In this document: one piece after another, positions 17,568 to 63,388 of the stretch | Layout: each line of letters opens with the position of its first letter | How positions within the stretch are numbered: position 1 is the stretch's first letter | Assembly (NCBI GenBank): GCA_026004775.1 | Contig: BPJU01000017.1 | Span: 62,001-126,000, forward strand | Reading direction: 5' to 3' | Length of the DNA stretch: 64,000 nt | Source of the DNA: Pirellulaceae bacterium | Lineage (GTDB): Bacteria > Planctomycetota > Planctomycetia > Pirellulales > Pirellulaceae | Position numbers and translations under genes: made by a program | The notes under the pieces: generated by a model | Database searches by the model: none | What the model saw: the letters and a program-made list of their open reading frames with translations, nothing else | Told to the model about the DNA's origin: nothing

Positions 17568-17647
17568 CCTGGGCACAACGGTCTTCTCGAACGTCGGACG
17601 ACTTACACTACTTGCTGGCACTAGCGGTTAGCTATTAACAACGGCCG

Positions 17648-17698
17648 TAGCGGAACTCGTACGGTGGACGCGCCAGCGTCCGCCGCAAGACTTCCGCC
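17648..17698. repeat. Two-tier hairpin repeat, copy A
   Basis: Outer arms GCGGAACTC / AAGACTTCCGC enclose an inner hairpin GGTGGACGC-GCCA-GCGTCCGCC. Same architecture as copies at 17782, 17854 and 60041. The inner stem differs in sequence between copies but stays paired. Confidence 0.75.
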
Positions 17699-17781
17699 TG
17701 TATAGTGGCACGGGCGTCTCGGCCGTGCGGGTCACCCAAGATGCTGGTTCAAACCGGTGTGCAACGATCTTGAACTTTGCT

Positions 17782-17834
17782 CGTAGCGGAAGTCGCTAGG
17801 CGGAACGCGCCAGCGTTCCGCCGTAAGACTTCCG
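17782..17834. repeat. Two-tier hairpin repeat, copy B
   Basis: Outer arms CGGAAGTC / GACTTCCG, inner arms GGCGGAACGC / GCGTTCCGCC around the loop GCCA. This is the most regular copy, with the inner 10-bp stem perfect. Confidence 0.8.
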
Positions 17835-17853
17835 TCATTGGGTGGTTCTTGTT

Positions 17854-17904
17854 CGTAGCGGAAGTCGCCAGGCGGCTGCGCCAGCAGTCGCCGTAAGACT
17901 TCCG
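17854..17904. repeat. Two-tier hairpin repeat, copy C
   Basis: Outer arms CGGAAGTC / GACTTCCG, inner arms GGCGGCTGC / GCAGTCGCC around GCCA. It is in the same orientation as copy B and only 20 bases after it. Confidence 0.8.
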
Positions 17905-17999
17905 AACCAAAAACTCCCCATCAGGCGCCCCCGTCCTCCACCATCGCGTAGAGCGCGCCAGTGTTCGACCCGCTCGTTCTATTTCGAATATTCGAACAT

Positions 18000-18045
18000 C
18001 GGAACACTTACGCCGTTCGCTTTCGCGAACGGCTAGCGTGTTCCG
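18000..18045. repeat. Nested palindrome with GGAACAC/GTGTTCC arms
   Basis: Outer arms CGGAACAC (18000-18007) and GTGTTCCG (18038-18045) enclose a second perfect hairpin CCGTTCGC-TTTC-GCGAACGG (18013-18032). The outer arms recur as a hairpin at 60129-60150 in the other accessory island. Confidence 0.7.
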
Positions 18046-18179
18046 CTACCATTCGGCGGATCGCGGCTTGGCTCGGCTCGCAGACGAGGCTAGGCTCACA
18101 CGGGAACTGGCTCACCCACCGGCCAAGCTCCGGTGCCGAGCGGCGCGGTGCGGCGGACAAGGCTGGCGGATTGATTGGT

Positions 18180-20072
<1,893 letters not shown>

Positions 20073-20381
20073 CGCCGCCTGCCCCCCTCCATTGGAGAAT
20101 CGCCGTTGCACTTTTGGTGCAGCCAACCCGCGCGGCTCGGTTTTCCCAGCCTCGCTTCTTCATCGGATGCGGCCAGAATTCGGCCCACAAAATCCCAGGA
20201 AAGAGCTTCTCAACACACCAAAGACAAGACCCTGCCCCTCACCGGGTACCCGGCTTTCAAAAACAAGATGCCCCGACAAAAGATTCGGACCGTCTTAACA
20301 GCCTCAAGCTCCCATCGAGCAACCCATGCAAAGATGCCGCCCCACGAAGCTCGGGCTGCTTCGAGAGCCCAGCGACTCTGC

Positions 20382-22148
20382 CTAACTTGTGTCCGGCGGC
20401 GGCCTCGCATCGGCCTCCGCCGAGCTTCCTTCAGCTTGGGCCCTCAGCATCGCCCGCCGCCGAGCCACCCACTCGCGCAAGCCCAATAGCTCCTGAGCCC
20501 CACGCACCAGGTCCACCCGCCACAACTCGCCAGCCTCCACAATCCGGCTGATCGTCAACTTCACTCGAGCCAACGCCCCTCGTAGCTCCGCCATCCGCTC
20601 CTCACTCACCCCCAACAGCTCAGCCACCGCGTCGGCCAACTCCTCCGGCGTCTGCCGAGCCGCCAACAACCGATCGGCCCACCTCGCTCGATCTTCCTCC
20701 CCCAACAAGCCCGGCACCCGACCCACACGCGCACACTCGGTAAGCCACTCGATCAGCTTCTGCCGAGCCCTTTGAAGCTGTTGCTCGTCCAAGGCTCCCA
20801 TCCTGAACTGCCGCTGGCCCTGCCTCCACTCGTCATACCGCTTCTTGTCAAACACCACGTCCTGGTCCTCTGGCTTGATCTGCCGCCATGCACACCAGGT
20901 CGTCCCCACCAACCGCACAAGCTCAGCCCACTCCACTTCGTCGATCGGCCCAATCCCAAGAGCATGCTGCCAAGAGAGGCCCTCGCCCATCTCACCGCTG
21001 TACCTGCGGCAGTCCACCGGACCCAGCTTGATCGGCGGCACTGGCAGTTTTAGTTGTTTATCACGCTCGACTTCCTGCCTGCCAGTCGCGGCACGGGAAG
21101 TTTTCCTTTTATTACGAGAACCTCGCAACTCCGCTCGCGCTTGCCCACCTCCCAAACGAGATGGCACTTGCCCACCTGGCGAAGCAGCCACCGTTTCTTC
21201 AGTAGGTGCACCCGACGCCGCCGCTTCGTCAAACGATGTTTCCGAGTTACCCGACACCTGGCCACCTGCCGCCGGAGCCTCCGTTTGTTCAACAGCCGAA
21301 GGTTCAGCGGTTGTCTCGTCGGACAAGTCGGCCTCTTCGGTTAGCTCGCCATCATCGATATCCCCATCCACTACCCGCTGCATGCCCTCTCTGAGCAATC
21401 GAAAAGCTCTGCCCAACGAGGCACGCACCTCGTCGCTTAACTGAGGCGTATCGGCCAGCGTTTCCTCGGTGACCTCCACACCGCACACCTGGATCGCATA
21501 GACCAGCCGGCACCACCCAGAACCATGGTGCGGCTGCTCCAAGACCGGCACCATCCGCACCGCCACCGGGTGTGCGTCGATCAGCATGTTCATGGTCACC
21601 GAATCCGCCGGGTTCTTCTCCGGAGTGCCAGAAAACCGTTCGGACCAAAAGCACCCCCGCACACCGTCTTCACGGTTAAAGTGAAAAGCCGAAGTCTGTT
21701 TGATAAGCTTCATGAACAGCGACACGGACGAGAGCCTCTCCCGCATTTCTTTCTGGAACTTTTGGTCTTCCAGCAGCACCGCTGGAGGATTTCTCTTCCA
21801 CCGGCATTCAATACCGTTCTCTTTGCAATACTCTCTGACCAGTTTGCGAAGTCCCTTCCAGGCTCGCTGGAGCACTTCCTCGTTCGACCAGCTTTTTACC
21901 CAATCGGGTCGTAGCTGCAAGCTGATCAGAATCGCCTCGGGCAGTATCGTGCAGGAATAGACTACCAGGCCGAAGACGCTGGCGTAGTGCACCACCTTTT
22001 CGAACAAGAAGAGTGGCCGGTCGATGCGCTCGTCTACTCGTGATGGGTCTCGCCGGATAAGCCCCTCTTGGCGCACGCAGGTCGAGCCGCACAACAGGCG
22101 GACCACGTCACCCGTCGAAAAAACGTCGCAGCGTCGTGGCCGAGCCAT
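20382..22148 (-). CDS. RAYT/Y1-transposase-like protein lacking HUH, paralogue 1
   Basis: A 588-residue protein. Residues 1-205 follow the long RAYT (TnpA_REP, IS200/IS605-like) family: VVYSCTILPEAILISLQL and KSWSNEEV sit where active members have AYAVMSNHYH plus WS-EEV, and FNREDGVRGCFWSERF (157-172) and LIDAHPVAVRMV match the ANREDG-G-FWEGRF and VDLNPIRAG motifs. The HUH histidines are replaced (PEAILI, 70-75). Residues 260-390 are a Ser/Ala/Glu-rich linker. The C-terminus (LGPVDCR, GIGPIDEVEWAELV, LLGLREWVARRRAML) is shared with the gene at 60.4 kb. Start ATG 22148 has AAGGAGGT 7 bases upstream. Likely a non-catalytic DNA-hairpin-binding descendant. Confidence 0.75.
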   Translation of the reverse strand: MARPRRCDVFSTGDVVRLLCGSTCVRQEGLIRRDPSRVDERIDRPLFLFEKVVHYASVFGLVVYSCTILPEAILISLQLRPDWVKSWSNEEVLQRAWKGLRKLVREYCKENGIECRWKRNPPAVLLEDQKFQKEMRERLSSVSLFMKLIKQTSAFHFNREDGVRGCFWSERFSGTPEKNPADSVTMNMLIDAHPVAVRMVPVLEQPHHGSGWCRLVYAIQVCGVEVTEETLADTPQLSDEVRASLGRAFRLLREGMQRVVDGDIDDGELTEEADLSDETTAEPSAVEQTEAPAAGGQVSGNSETSFDEAAASGAPTEETVAASPGGQVPSRLGGGQARAELRGSRNKRKTSRAATGRQEVERDKQLKLPVPPIKLGPVDCRRYSGEMGEGLSWQHALGIGPIDEVEWAELVRLVGTTWCAWRQIKPEDQDVVFDKKRYDEWRQGQRQFRMGALDEQQLQRARQKLIEWLTECARVGRVPGLLGEEDRARWADRLLAARQTPEELADAVAELLGVSEERMAELRGALARVKLTISRIVEAGELWRVDLVRGAQELLGLREWVARRRAMLRAQAEGSSAEADARPPPDTS

Positions 22149-22312
22149 CCGTGGTACCTCCTTGAAATGGTGCAAGATTCCCTGTGCCTTTGCTGCCACT
22201 ACTCGATGCGCGCAGCCCATCGAGCGCCGGCATTCCGAGCAGCCTAGCAAATTCTCGGAAAAACTAAACCTATGTGGCCTTGTTTGCTCTACCATACGGG
22301 TGTCACACTATG

Positions 22313-22336
22313 CCCGACTTTTTTAAAAAATCGGGG
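22313..22336. terminator. AT-cored palindrome, possible bidirectional terminator
   Basis: CCCGACTTTTTT directly followed by AAAAAATCGGGG: a 12-base arm pair with one mismatch and no loop sequence beyond the T/A core. It lies about 165 bases upstream of the RAYT-like start, so a structural or regulatory palindrome is as likely as a terminator. Confidence 0.35.
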
Positions 22337-59873: not shown

Positions 59874-60040
59874 CGTAACGGGCTTTTTGGGATCGCGGGC
59901 CCTATAGAATACTGACGGTAATAAATGCTCATTCGCACATCCCTGGCAGGAATTGCCGCGGGGCGCGGCAGGAATGTCGTCCTACGGCCGAGGTAACCGT
60001 TCACGGTTAGCCAATGAAGAACACGATATTGGCTTACGGG

Positions 60041-60090
60041 GTAGCGGAAGTCGCAAGGCGGACGCGGTAGCGGCCGCCGCAAGACTTCCG
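60041..60090. repeat. Two-tier hairpin repeat, copy D
   Basis: Outer arms CGGAAGTC / GACTTCCG, inner arms GGCGGACGC and GCGGCCGCC around GGTA. It has the same architecture as copies A-C at 17.6-17.9 kb, 42 kb away. Confidence 0.8.
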
Positions 60091-60128
60091 CAACGAAAAA
60101 ATCTTCGCGAAGCGTCCACATTCCGTAT

Positions 60129-60150
60129 GCGGAACACGCAAGTGTTCCGC
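60129..60150. repeat. Hairpin GCGGAACAC/GTGTTCCGC
   Basis: Perfect 9-bp arms with loop GCAA. The same GGAACAC/GTGTTCC arms form the outer stem of the nested palindrome at 18000-18045. Confidence 0.75.
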
Positions 60151-60373
60151 ACCTGTGGAAGCCAGGCCCCGAAACAGCTTGTGATTCAACCGTGAACGGT
60201 TACGCTTCGGCGTTAGCTACACCAAAAAAGATCGGCCACTTCATGTCCGGATTCGCCGGGGTTTTGATAAACTTCTAGGGTTGGTTGGGCAAACTCCTAT
60301 CCGGCCGGCCGGTGCGGGCGTAAAGCGCGCCGCAGGGGGTAAGGATTGCGCGCCAAGTAAGGAGTGAGTCCGG

Positions 60374-62011
60374 ATGGGACGAAGTGCTCGATATGAGATC
60401 TTGCCGGAAGGCAAACCGCTGCGGGTGGCGTGCATCTCGGAGTGTTCTCGCCAGCAAGCCCTGCTGGGCAAGGATCGGATACTGGGAAAGGATTTCTCCC
60501 ACAGGCGCAAGATTCTTCTAGAGACGTGTAGCCGCTATCGTCCGGCGTTTGCCTTGGAGCTCTATTCGACGGCTGTGCTGCCCAACGCCTGGGTAAGCTA
60601 TTTGCACGTGCATCCGGAGTGGGCGAAGAGCTGGTCGGCCCAGGAGCTACTGCTTCGCGTAAAGCATGCTTTTCCCAGGTCCGTTGCCAAGAGGTGCAGG
60701 GAGCACCGCATCCGCTGGAGGCGTAATGCACCGCCACCAGAAGTGCTTTGCCAGGACGTGGAGTTTATTGAGTATTGGCGCGGGCAATTGGCTTCGCTGC
60801 CCTTTTTCGAACAAGTGGTCAAGCAACGCGTGGCGATCCTCTTCAACCAGGAGGACCAGGTAAGCGGCCACTTTTGGTCGGACCGGTACGGGTCGGTGCC
60901 GGTCAATGCCGAGTCGCATTCGATCCTGGTGGCATTGATTCAAGAAATCGAGCTGGTTTCGACCGGTGTGGTCCCGATATCAGAGGTGTGTCACAGCGGT
61001 TCGCTGTGGGACCGATACGTGGGTTTGATGCGTGAGAAAGGCCTGGAAAACGACGACAGCTTGCTCCAGGTGGTAACGGACCTCAACGAATTGGTGATCA
61101 CGGGACTGCGGACTCCGGACGGTGGCCGGATCCAGGTGGCGGGTGTGAGGCGGGAATCGGGGTTAGTGGTAGCGGGCGGGCTGCACGTGCCGGATGGTGC
61201 ACAGAATTCATCACAGCAAAATCCGGCACGGCAAAGTCCGTCCAGGCGAAATGCATCAAGGCAAAATGCGTCCCGGCAAGGCCGGCAGGCGGATGGGGCG
61301 GCGAGTGCCGGCGCTGTTGAGCCAATACAAATTGATGGCTATGTGGAAGAAATACGCGAAGTGCTGGCGTTGGGTCCGGTGGATTGCCGGACAGAGGGCT
61401 GGCCGGCAGCCGACGTCGACCAGTGGCACGGGATATCGGGAATCGGGCCGGTCGACCCGGTCGAATGGGTAGCGCTTTCGCGGTGGTTGGGTGCCACATG
61501 GCGGATTTGGCGGTTGATGAAGCCCAGCGCCGATGTGGAAGAGGAGCAGATACACCGCCCGGGTCGCCATTGGAAAATCACGGACGAATTGCTCCAGGTC
61601 AAGCCGCTGGATGAGAATCTGCGAGACCGAGTGCGCCGGAACTTGGCCCATTGGCTTCAGGTGTGGGGGCAAGCCTGTCAACTGTCCGGCTTGAGCACGG
61701 AGGAAGAGGTTCAACAATGGGTCGAGCGGTTATTGCTGGTAAGGGAGAATCCGGACGAGTTGGCGGGCGTGGTTGCGCTTCTTTTGGGGTATGGGCAGGC
61801 GGAGTTGGAGAGGTTGCGCGGGGTGCTCGGGCGGGTGCGGTTGCGGGTAGCGGATGTGATACGGACGGGCGAGGCGTGGGTGCGCAATCCGCTGAGGACC
61901 GCCAAGGAGTTGTTAGGGTTTAACGATTGGGTGAGGCGGCGGCGTGCGTTGCTGCGTAGCCAGCGCGAGGAGCGGGCAGGCTCGGACGAGAATCGGTTGG
62001 ACTCGAGTTAG
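60374..62011 (+). CDS. RAYT/Y1-transposase-like protein lacking HUH, paralogue 2
   Basis: A 545-residue paralogue of the protein encoded at 20.4-22.1 kb. It is closer to active long RAYTs at the N-terminus: GKDFSHRRKILLE matches their GK-YEHRR-W-E, and LYSTAVLPNAWVSYLHV with WAKSWSAQEL matches AYAVMSNHYH-VLHV and WS-EE. FNQEDQVSGHFWSDRY (157-172) matches ANREDG-G-FWEGRF. The HUH histidines are replaced (PNAWVS, 70-75) and no tyrosine is seen in the FNQED helix. Five 15-base units encode a linker at about 280-304. The C-terminus (LGPVDCR, GIGPVDPVEWVALSRW, LLGFNDWVRRRRALL) is shared with paralogue 1. ATG 60374 has AAGGAG 9 bases upstream. Confidence 0.75.
   Translation: MGRSARYEILPEGKPLRVACISECSRQQALLGKDRILGKDFSHRRKILLETCSRYRPAFALELYSTAVLPNAWVSYLHVHPEWAKSWSAQELLLRVKHAFPRSVAKRCREHRIRWRRNAPPPEVLCQDVEFIEYWRGQLASLPFFEQVVKQRVAILFNQEDQVSGHFWSDRYGSVPVNAESHSILVALIQEIELVSTGVVPISEVCHSGSLWDRYVGLMREKGLENDDSLLQVVTDLNELVITGLRTPDGGRIQVAGVRRESGLVVAGGLHVPDGAQNSSQQNPARQSPSRRNASRQNASRQGRQADGAASAGAVEPIQIDGYVEEIREVLALGPVDCRTEGWPAADVDQWHGISGIGPVDPVEWVALSRWLGATWRIWRLMKPSADVEEEQIHRPGRHWKITDELLQVKPLDENLRDRVRRNLAHWLQVWGQACQLSGLSTEEEVQQWVERLLLVRENPDELAGVVALLLGYGQAELERLRGVLGRVRLRVADVIRTGEAWVRNPLRTAKELLGFNDWVRRRRALLRSQREERAGSDENRLDSS
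61211..61285 (+). repeat. Five in-frame 15-base units in the linker
   Basis: Units start at 61211, 61226, 61241, 61256 and 61271 and share the core GGCAAAATSCG with substitutions, encoding S/A-R/Q-Q/R-N/S-P/A pentapeptides (residues about 280-304). This is a recent or slippage-prone tandem expansion inside the hinge between the RAYT-like domain and the C-terminal domain. Confidence 0.7.
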
Positions 62012-63388
62012 TGTCCCGTGGTGGATGAAAGTTCACTTTTTCGGAAGTTTTTTTAGCAGCCCGGAAGGGGTTGTGGGGTGAGAGTCTTGTCGGTGGTGGC
62101 TCGTAAGAGCCGGTAATTGGTCTTTTGCGCTTCTCGTTGAGGCGTTTCTGAGCGGTGATCGGGCTACCTGGGTGAATTCGCGCCCGGGAAGTACCGACAG
62201 TGTCTAATAGCTGAGTGCACAATTGGAGTGGTATCGCAATTCGGGGCCCGCGGAAAAAACTAGGGGTGCCTGGCACCAGATTTCGCGGATTTTCGGGGTG
62301 CCTGGCACCAGGTTTTAACGGATCCGGTCGTGGCTGGCACCAGTCTCTGCTTGTCTGTTCGGCCAGCAACTGCAAGCGAACTGAAATGCTGCACATCGAG
62401 CTGCCTTTTACTATCCCAACGGTTCAACACGACCACCCTCCGCACGCTCCCACCACCTCCTATCTGCTCAACCACCGACGCACGCCAAGACAACCCCACT
62501 ACCCCAATCTCCCTCCAGCTGTACCCTCCCGTAACTGCCCCACATGCCGTGTCGTACGGACATTAAACGCCGAAGATGCTCGGACACCCGTTTACTGTTC
62601 CATGGGTTGCTGCCGCGCCATCGGCCACTCAATGGCCGCCTACCCAGTCTTTTCACCGACCCGTTCCCAGTCCCAAACACGGCTTTTCAGCACCCCGCTT
62701 CCATTCCAGCCCCGAGCTGCATCTTGCTGTTTGCTCGCCCACCGATCGCTCCGTCACTTACCCGGGACCAGGCTGCCTAATCCGAGGTGGGGTTATCGTC
62801 CGCACAGCATGTTGTTCCCAGCAGCGGCGCGCCACCAGTAGCTGCTCCAGCCCTATCGAACGCATCACACCCAATACCACTGCAGAGTGTCTGTACGGCA
62901 AGCTGCGGGTGATCCACCCAAAAGCCCCCTGGTTCGCGACGCGAAAATCGACGTATCAGCTCACTCACGCCTTCCCCCAGGTACCACCGCTTGCCCAACG
63001 TCTGGTGCTTGACGTAAAGCTTGCGGGCACGGAACGGCCAAAATGGGCGGTGCAGACCTTTGCTCGCTCGAACCGGTTGCTCGCGGCCCCAGGAGGTGTA
63101 CCGCACTTCCGCTGCACCAGGGCAAGATATGAAAACCATCGGCGCACTTGGCGCCGGCCAGGCGGTGAGTTCGGCTGATACAAAACGCAGATCAACCGAA
63201 TGCGGCTCGTGTTGCCTGCTGGGGCTTGCCAGGAAATCGTTATTGGTTTTCACAGGAAGTTGCGATTCGTGACCAGGAGTTTTCTTTCGCCGCCCTGTTC
63301 GGTACTCTATTTCTCAGGCGAGCACCACAATGGGCCGCCTGACACAACAGCTTCCAAGGATTGTTGTCGCAGGTTGACGTGCTGGGTT
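62012..63388. other. Long non-coding region of accessory island 2
   Basis: About 1.4 kb without a supportable gene. The palindrome repeats annotated separately lie at 62263-62345. From about 62400 to 62780 the plus strand is strikingly poor in G and rich in C (CCACCACC-type tracts). The open frames at 62215-62841 (plus) and 62777-63253 (minus) have no recognisable protein features and no clear ribosome-binding site; the second has proline-free aromatic stretches but I would not call it a gene. Confidence 0.5.
62263..62345. repeat. GGTGCCTGGCACC palindromes 3' of the second RAYT-like gene
   Basis: GGTGCCTGGCACC occurs at 62265-62277 and 62297-62309, each preceded by GG and followed by AGATTTCG or AGGTTTTAACG, with a third, partial copy (TGGCTGGCACCAG) near 62331-62343. 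They begin about 250 bases after the RAYT-like stop codon, matching the position of the GGGGACAG palindromes beside paralogue 1. Confidence 0.75.

Follow-up and report, generated by a model that had tools for sequence, protein, structure and literature searches.

Dispersed copies of a RAYT-derived gene family lacking the HUH and tyrosine residues in a Pirellulaceae genome

The closest described systems to the genes reported here are the transposases of TnpA_Y1 subclass 2.3. In the sections of Quentin et al. (2018, PMC6006769) drawn on here, this subclass is characterized by the motifs NHYH, WE, and YVDLNP, a length of about 325-400 aa, and a long HUH-Y spacing, and it has a mean of 3.9 copies and no palindromes. 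In the same sections, homologues without the HUH/Y motifs were set aside as probably non-functional. HUH and Tyr are likewise conserved in all aligned RAYTs and TIRYTs in the part of De Nocera et al. (2013, PMC3733652) used here. A multi-copy RAYT lacking HUH was not found described in the open-licence PMC literature that we searched.

The genes under study lie in a window of 64,000 nucleotides from a Pirellulaceae bacterium (assembly GCA_026004775.1, contig BPJU01000017.1, positions 62,001 to 126,000). At 60374-62011 on the plus strand, the first-pass annotation of this window had correctly placed a 545 aa ORF with its ATG at 60374 and its stop at 62011; a Shine-Dalgarno sequence, AAGGAG, stands at the proper distance before the ATG. 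The product consists of a RAYT-derived N-terminal domain without HUH or Tyr (residues 1-215), a low-complexity linker with 15-nt repeats, and a new, predicted helical C-terminal domain (residues about 330-530). The sibling gene, which had been taken as the first paralogue, is a 588 aa ORF at 20382-22148 on the minus strand. We assign the two to subfamilies A and B, respectively. By BLASTP their products match with an E value of 3e-84 and 31% identity over 578 columns. The reported gapless collinearity over residues 1-200 is reproduced by MAFFT, with BLASTP adding a compensating 2-residue gap near residue 113, and the blocks listed in its support, KSWS (85-88), FWS (167-169), LGPVDCR, GIGP-D-VEW, and WV-RRRA-LR, were each found in both proteins.

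The gene at 60374-62011 had been interpreted as a second paralogue that arose by an old duplication or by two independent arrivals. A genome-wide count of family members does not fit this picture and reveals the main point that had been missed, namely that each of the two genes is one copy of a dispersed element present in high number. The genome searched was the window's own (6.14 Mb, 30 contigs, 99.9% complete), in which the 60374-62011 protein as query gave 76 matching pieces and the 20382-22148 protein gave 90. Fifty-one stretches, covering the main matches together with two further Y1 loci, were extracted; 44 carry near-complete copies, four carry fragments, and three carry none. The near-complete copies fall into three subfamilies, A with 22 (including 60374-62011), B with 15 (including 20382-22148), and C with seven, and the ORF is intact in 16, nine, and six of these, respectively. 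Full-length matches inside one subfamily share about 90-97% protein identity, as compared with 33-39% between A and either B or C. Because the flanks beyond the copies are mostly single-copy, the copies represent dispersed elements. A few flanks are common to two loci (L150 and L158 on the left, L147 and L158 on the right, and L132 and L133 on the left), a pattern that recombination or assembly at repeats would be expected to produce. No empty sites were found, the genus being represented by one genome. A lagging-strand bias was also considered, and none was seen by flank GC skew in element orientation (positive in 11/22 A, 8/15 B, and 3/7 C copies).

The RAYT-like descent that had been proposed is well supported for the N-terminal domain. 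Of 100 genomes from the same GTDB family, the window's own genome counted, 57 encode proteins that match its 215 residues. The best-scoring matches (30 sequences from 29 loci, termed HUH+ relatives) served as the comparison set, which leaves room for HUH-less forms elsewhere; these best matches are mostly 350-450 aa long, with the N-H-x-H and Tyr/Asn motif intact. A profile of seven HUH+ relatives aligned to the A/B/C profile with a probability of 99.8% (hhalign, E 4e-28, 211 columns), and an HUH+ protein used as query reached the A/B/C copies at 5.7e-20. Two HUH+ relatives match the Pfam family Y1_Tnp (PF01797) at 1.4e-5 and 0.0015, and one of them also matches the NCBIfam model REP_Tyr_transpos at 1.7e-10, below that model's cut-off. 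By sequence, A, B, and C thus descend from the RAYT/TnpA_REP group. Searched directly, A and B gave nothing significant and no transposase match in Pfam, and A, B, and C gave nothing significant in NCBIfam or PHROGs. The HUH+ relatives appear to fit subclass 2.3 as outlined in the sections cited above, an assignment made by motif (NHxH, YVDLNP) and not with the models of Quentin et al.

In the window's own genome, the HUH+ query gave 46 matches, all of which lie by position at A, B, or C copies, and thus this branch has no detected HUH+ member there. The genome contains two active-looking Y1 loci, at C16:42747 and C2:517890, which belong to other branches by their motifs, and neither was linked to A/B/C element ends. 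The former (L137, C16:37000-49000) is a single Y1 TnpA of 157 aa with the motifs DHVH, WQ, and YIRKQPEHH, which are like those of subclass 1.2, and it adjoins a long array of near-identical tandem repeats of about 40 residues per unit in translation. The latter (L138, C2:512000-523000) comprises several clustered RAYT-like ORFs, all or partly damaged, that have NHVH and ATNPI motifs and carry VGARHA repeats in frame, resembling subclass 2.4 with REP inserts.

Comparison with the HUH+ relatives reveals the extent of the catalytic loss. At the HUH column, where 30 of these 30 best matches have NHxH, A reads NAWV, B reads EAIL, and C reads DALL. The Tyr column holds Ile, Leu, and Leu, and the Asn column Glu, His, and Gln, in A, B, and C, respectively, whereas Tyr and Asn are kept in 30/30 of the same best matches. 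All eight A/B/C sequences compared lack the catalytic residues, that is, both the HUH motif and the catalytic Tyr with Asn-Pro (Y---NP) that mark a RAYT or TnpA_REP; the Trp before the Tyr column (FWS or FWA) is retained in each subfamily. The absence of HUH residues from both window proteins, claimed earlier, is borne out by this comparison. The further statement that the column was replaced differently in the two is correct for NAWV and EAIL as a whole but not for the first His, where both proteins, like subfamily C, have Ala, and the loss of the Tyr and its Asn partner from both proteins had gone unmentioned.

In a tree with the 30 HUH+ sequences, the eight A/B/C sequences form one clade with a support of 100/100, and the two window genes were not found scattered among separate active lineages, where recent independent decay would have placed them. 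Long branches around A, B, and C are flagged by treekit, and therefore the case for one origin also rests on the shared C-terminal domain and the shared Ala at the first His. Taken together, these sequence comparisons indicate that the residues were most likely lost once, before A, B, and C split, and that the loss preceded three expansions, each subfamily having multiplied afterwards. The suggestion that the inactive form was inherited is thus upheld; the HUH-less form is, however, not merely persistent, as it multiplied after the residues were lost. Set against subclass 2.3 as far as the sections cited describe it, A, B, and C keep the layout over residues 1-215 and, of the signature, only the W (FWS/FWA). 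They differ in the missing H, H, Y, and N, in a replaced distal C-terminal domain, in their 44 copies as opposed to a mean of 3.9, and in having palindromes where that subclass has none.

The C-terminal domain, of about 200 residues, is common to A, B, and C. It was detected in one of 397 genomes of the class and one of 396 genomes of the order, the window's own genome both times (six candidates per genome were scored, so that weak relatives may have escaped). No relative came from two scans of 84,980 species, from which records very near the window's own genome may be left out, or from IMG/VR; the best match to PDB sequences had an E value of 1.3. The domain was modeled as all-helical with a mean pLDDT of 66, and the model gave no Foldseek match below an E value of 1.6. 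VIA-align gave middling matches of this model to helical domains of TetR and exportin (Z up to 6.5), a level that common helical arrangements reach, and the model offers no functional hint. A recognisable catalytic motif was not found in the domain. A two-row structure model of A with B had a pLDDT of 39.6 and was unusable.

The mean dN/dS among intact copies is 0.23 for A (n = 16), 0.30 for B (n = 9), and 0.13 for C (n = 6), in pairs that are non-independent and among copies that appear to exchange segments. Split by domain, A gives 0.22 (N-terminal) and 0.20 (C-terminal); for the B linker the value is near 1 (0.97). Variable sites are distributed over codon positions 1/2/3 as 76/43/150 in A, 34/31/64 in B, and 9/5/23 in C, a non-neutral spread in each (p 3e-15, 4e-4, and 7e-4, respectively). 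Since a dead passenger would give a dN/dS near 1, we conclude that the protein of A, B, and C stayed under purifying selection, and values of 0.13-0.30 agree with the persistence of the inactive form proposed in the first-pass annotation. The observation made there is confirmed, and its interpretation is partly supported. Private and shared changes have the same low dN/dS. Relaxed selection after insertion was rejected on this basis, and selection at the level of the element is therefore not distinguished from selection at the level of the host. Thirteen of the 44 copies are frame-shifted or broken. The six broken A copies carry single-base lesions that are all private, so no broken A copy was seen to have multiplied. 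Among the six broken B copies, two loci (L122 and L123) have the same 1-nt deletion, which may mean that either a broken B copy moved or slippage struck twice.

The HUH-less form therefore outnumbers any active relative found in its own genome and is under purifying selection, and it follows that a filter on HUH/Y residues hides living elements. The catalytic core was lost long ago, yet the gene occupies more than 40 genome places and the protein was kept intact, which raises the questions of what moves the element, whether an element can spread with a transposase unable to cut, and who cuts, the last two of which are testable in one strain. In this family the DNA-binding role of RAYTs would be separated by nature from the catalytic one; what RAYTs do is still a matter of debate.

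The copies extend well beyond the ORF. The window A copy is homologous to other A copies from 60212 to 62342 on the plus strand, with the outer parts absent. Its 5' end (60212-60373) carries an A-run and a GATCGGCCAC motif in addition to the Shine-Dalgarno sequence; A copies have in common an A-run and an ATCGGC(C/T)(A/G)C motif, which precede the ATG by about 120-145 nt. Its 3' untranslated part (62012-62342) holds a T-run, a hairpin, a GTCTTGTC motif, and then a palindrome array with three units at 62266-62340 (GTGCCTGGCAC at 62266 and 62298, GTGGCTGGCAC at 62330). These units are GTAG-tagged in most other A copies and not in the window copy. A separate MITE/REP-like repeat adjoins this element at 59994-60203 on the plus strand, with near-palindromic ends AACCGTTCACGGTTA and AACCGTGAACGGTTA; copies of it that are 96% identical adjoin two C elements (L129 and L130). 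It contains a GTAG-tagged module at 60041 with a hairpin of 9-bp stem (z -4.9), and this module recurs in B tails. The window B element, on the minus strand, has a 5' leader at 22149-22324 that starts at AAAAAAGTCGGGC and a 3' tail at 17645-20381 with GGGGACAGACCCC at 19975 and 20006 and GTAG modules at 17783 and 17855. The tail is interrupted by an IS110 element (transposase ORF 18205-19923, minus strand, PF01548 at 2.3e-26), beyond which the GTAG modules resume.

Across the genome, a GTCTTGTC-type motif follows the stop codon in 44 of 44 copies (22 A, 15 B, and 7 C). The non-coding block of T-run, hairpin, and GTCTTGTC, 70-150 nt 3' of the stop, is common to the three subfamilies despite their distant proteins. 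A covarying 3' RNA was considered and is not claimed, because the RNAalifold consensus of 37 sequences reached only -3.1 kcal/mol. In the A arrays, palindromic units number two or more and mostly carry a GTAG tag; 22/22 have at least two exact GTGCCTGGCAC/GTGCCAGGCAC units. Exact matches to GTAGTGCCTGGCACCA number 38 genome-wide, by position at or close to A copies or A remnants, and a control pattern has none. B tails carry GGGGACAGACCCC-type repeats, with a GTAG-tagged module in nine of 15 loci. Under a strict repeated-palindrome test, 5/15 B and 1/7 C copies pass, mostly for other words; clear GTAG palindromes were not recognised in C copies. No repeated palindromes were seen beside the 30 HUH+ relatives, some of which have short flanks.

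The GTAG-tagged palindromes by A and B may correspond to the RAYT/REPtron arrangement, and the TIRtron motif GGGGWSAS is matched by GGGGACAG in B, in both cases as given in the parts of De Nocera et al. (PMC3733652) used here. Unlike the RAYTs and TIRYTs described there, A, B, and C lack HUH and Tyr, and the whole gene is repeated, beyond palindromes alone. With IS200/IS605 they share a coding element in many similar copies and a distant kinship via Y1_Tnp. They differ in lacking HUH and Tyr, in a size of about 2.1-3 kb, and in long non-coding ends; instead of the HUH/Y1 transposase, subterminal hairpins, and absent target duplication of that group, the residues are gone and the ends of A show TA/CTAG.

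We put a probability of about 0.5 on the reading that the protein serves its own element as a DNA-binding factor and that strand cleavage is supplied in trans, which makes it the most likely explanation, followed by carriage by an unrelated transposase and then by self-catalysis. The gene is seen as the coding part of a mobile element descended from a RAYT-like TnpA_Y1 transposase. The ancestor of A, B, and C most likely lost both HUH His residues, the Tyr, and its Asn partner and gained the new helical C-terminal domain, and the three subfamilies then spread to 22, 15, and 7 places in this genome. The protein would keep the DNA-recognition role of a RAYT, bind the palindromes and hairpins at its own element, and recruit, or protect the element for, a strand-cutting enzyme, so that the element would be coding, cis-favouring, and non-autonomous. 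The palindrome arrays of all 22 A copies and the GTAG modules at nine of 15 B loci, as opposed to none beside the 30 HUH+ relatives, argue for this reading. So do the dispersed copies, the N-terminal homology to HUH+ proteins, the low dN/dS, the private lesions of the broken A copies, the GTCTTGTC-type motif of all 44 copies, and the confinement of the A outer ends to A copies or remnants. The two active-looking Y1 loci of other branches, the lack of clear GTAG palindromes in C, and the L122/L123 deletion, by which a broken B copy may have moved, argue against it, and given the equal dN/dS of private and shared changes, the host may be what keeps the protein.

The outer ends of A bear on a more tentative possibility, in which an unrelated transposase, e.g., of the TA/CTAG-targeting IS630 type, moves the element via short TIRs and the RAYT-derived protein is cargo retained for some other reason. 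IS630 targets CTAG. The longer A copies, of about 3 kb, begin after CTAG in five and after TA in seven of eight recognisable left ends and finish at TA in eight and at CTAG in six of 12 right ends, where CTAG makes up 0.055% of flank positions, and they carry an imperfect inverted repeat, TAGTnnTTCGTC. Full A copies presumably resemble IS630-type elements and their MITEs in this respect. A TA duplication is suggested by these sequences, and only suggested because no empty site was seen. Seven IS630-type DDE matches (DDE_3) also exist in the genome. These are, however, located elsewhere than the A/B/C elements, A has no internal DDE gene, and the genome's own IS630 TIR, GCTAAATAGCTTTGCA, is unlike that of A, on which ground IS630 was rejected as the mover. 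Moreover, the end sequences occur only at A copies or remnants (12/12 left and 16/17 right matches, the 17th being a piece of about 90 bases), so they go with the A gene; an A-type TIR was not noticed by eye at B or C ends; and the low dN/dS of a cargo gene in 31 intact copies would need a host reason. The specificity of these ends for the A gene, selection on both domains, three expansions after the loss, and the lack of a detected HUH+ branch member in the genome would also suit an autonomous element whose HUH-less protein cuts DNA by a different active site, perhaps in the C-terminal domain. We regard this as unlikely, as that domain is without a PDB sequence match, a significant structural match to its all-helical model, or a recognisable catalytic motif. 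Slightly less likely again is the full form of the idea, that a RAYT-derived lineage replaced HUH/tyrosine chemistry and that all three subfamilies spread as an orphan-domain protein transposed itself by a new active site; only a demonstration of self-catalysis would make the system categorically new. Finally, the 13 broken copies and the fragments could be read as relics that were made before the residue loss and have decayed since. This is very improbable and already contradicted, because the residues are missing from A, B, and C alike, which form one clade, and dS inside subfamilies is 0.03-0.14, which makes the copies far younger than the loss, and dN/dS is well below 1.

Two further observations concern the B copies. 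Within L121-L126, five of the six broken copies have their lesion in, or just after, an A-rich stretch, AATAAAAGGAAAAC, between the two domains, possibly reflecting slippage or programmed frameshifting. In addition, many B copies stand head to head with another diverged repeat, for example, upstream of the L120 ORF at about -275 to -180; the inverted start of the repeat facing the B copies also reads AAAAATCGGGG, and the junction is TTTTTTAAAAAA.
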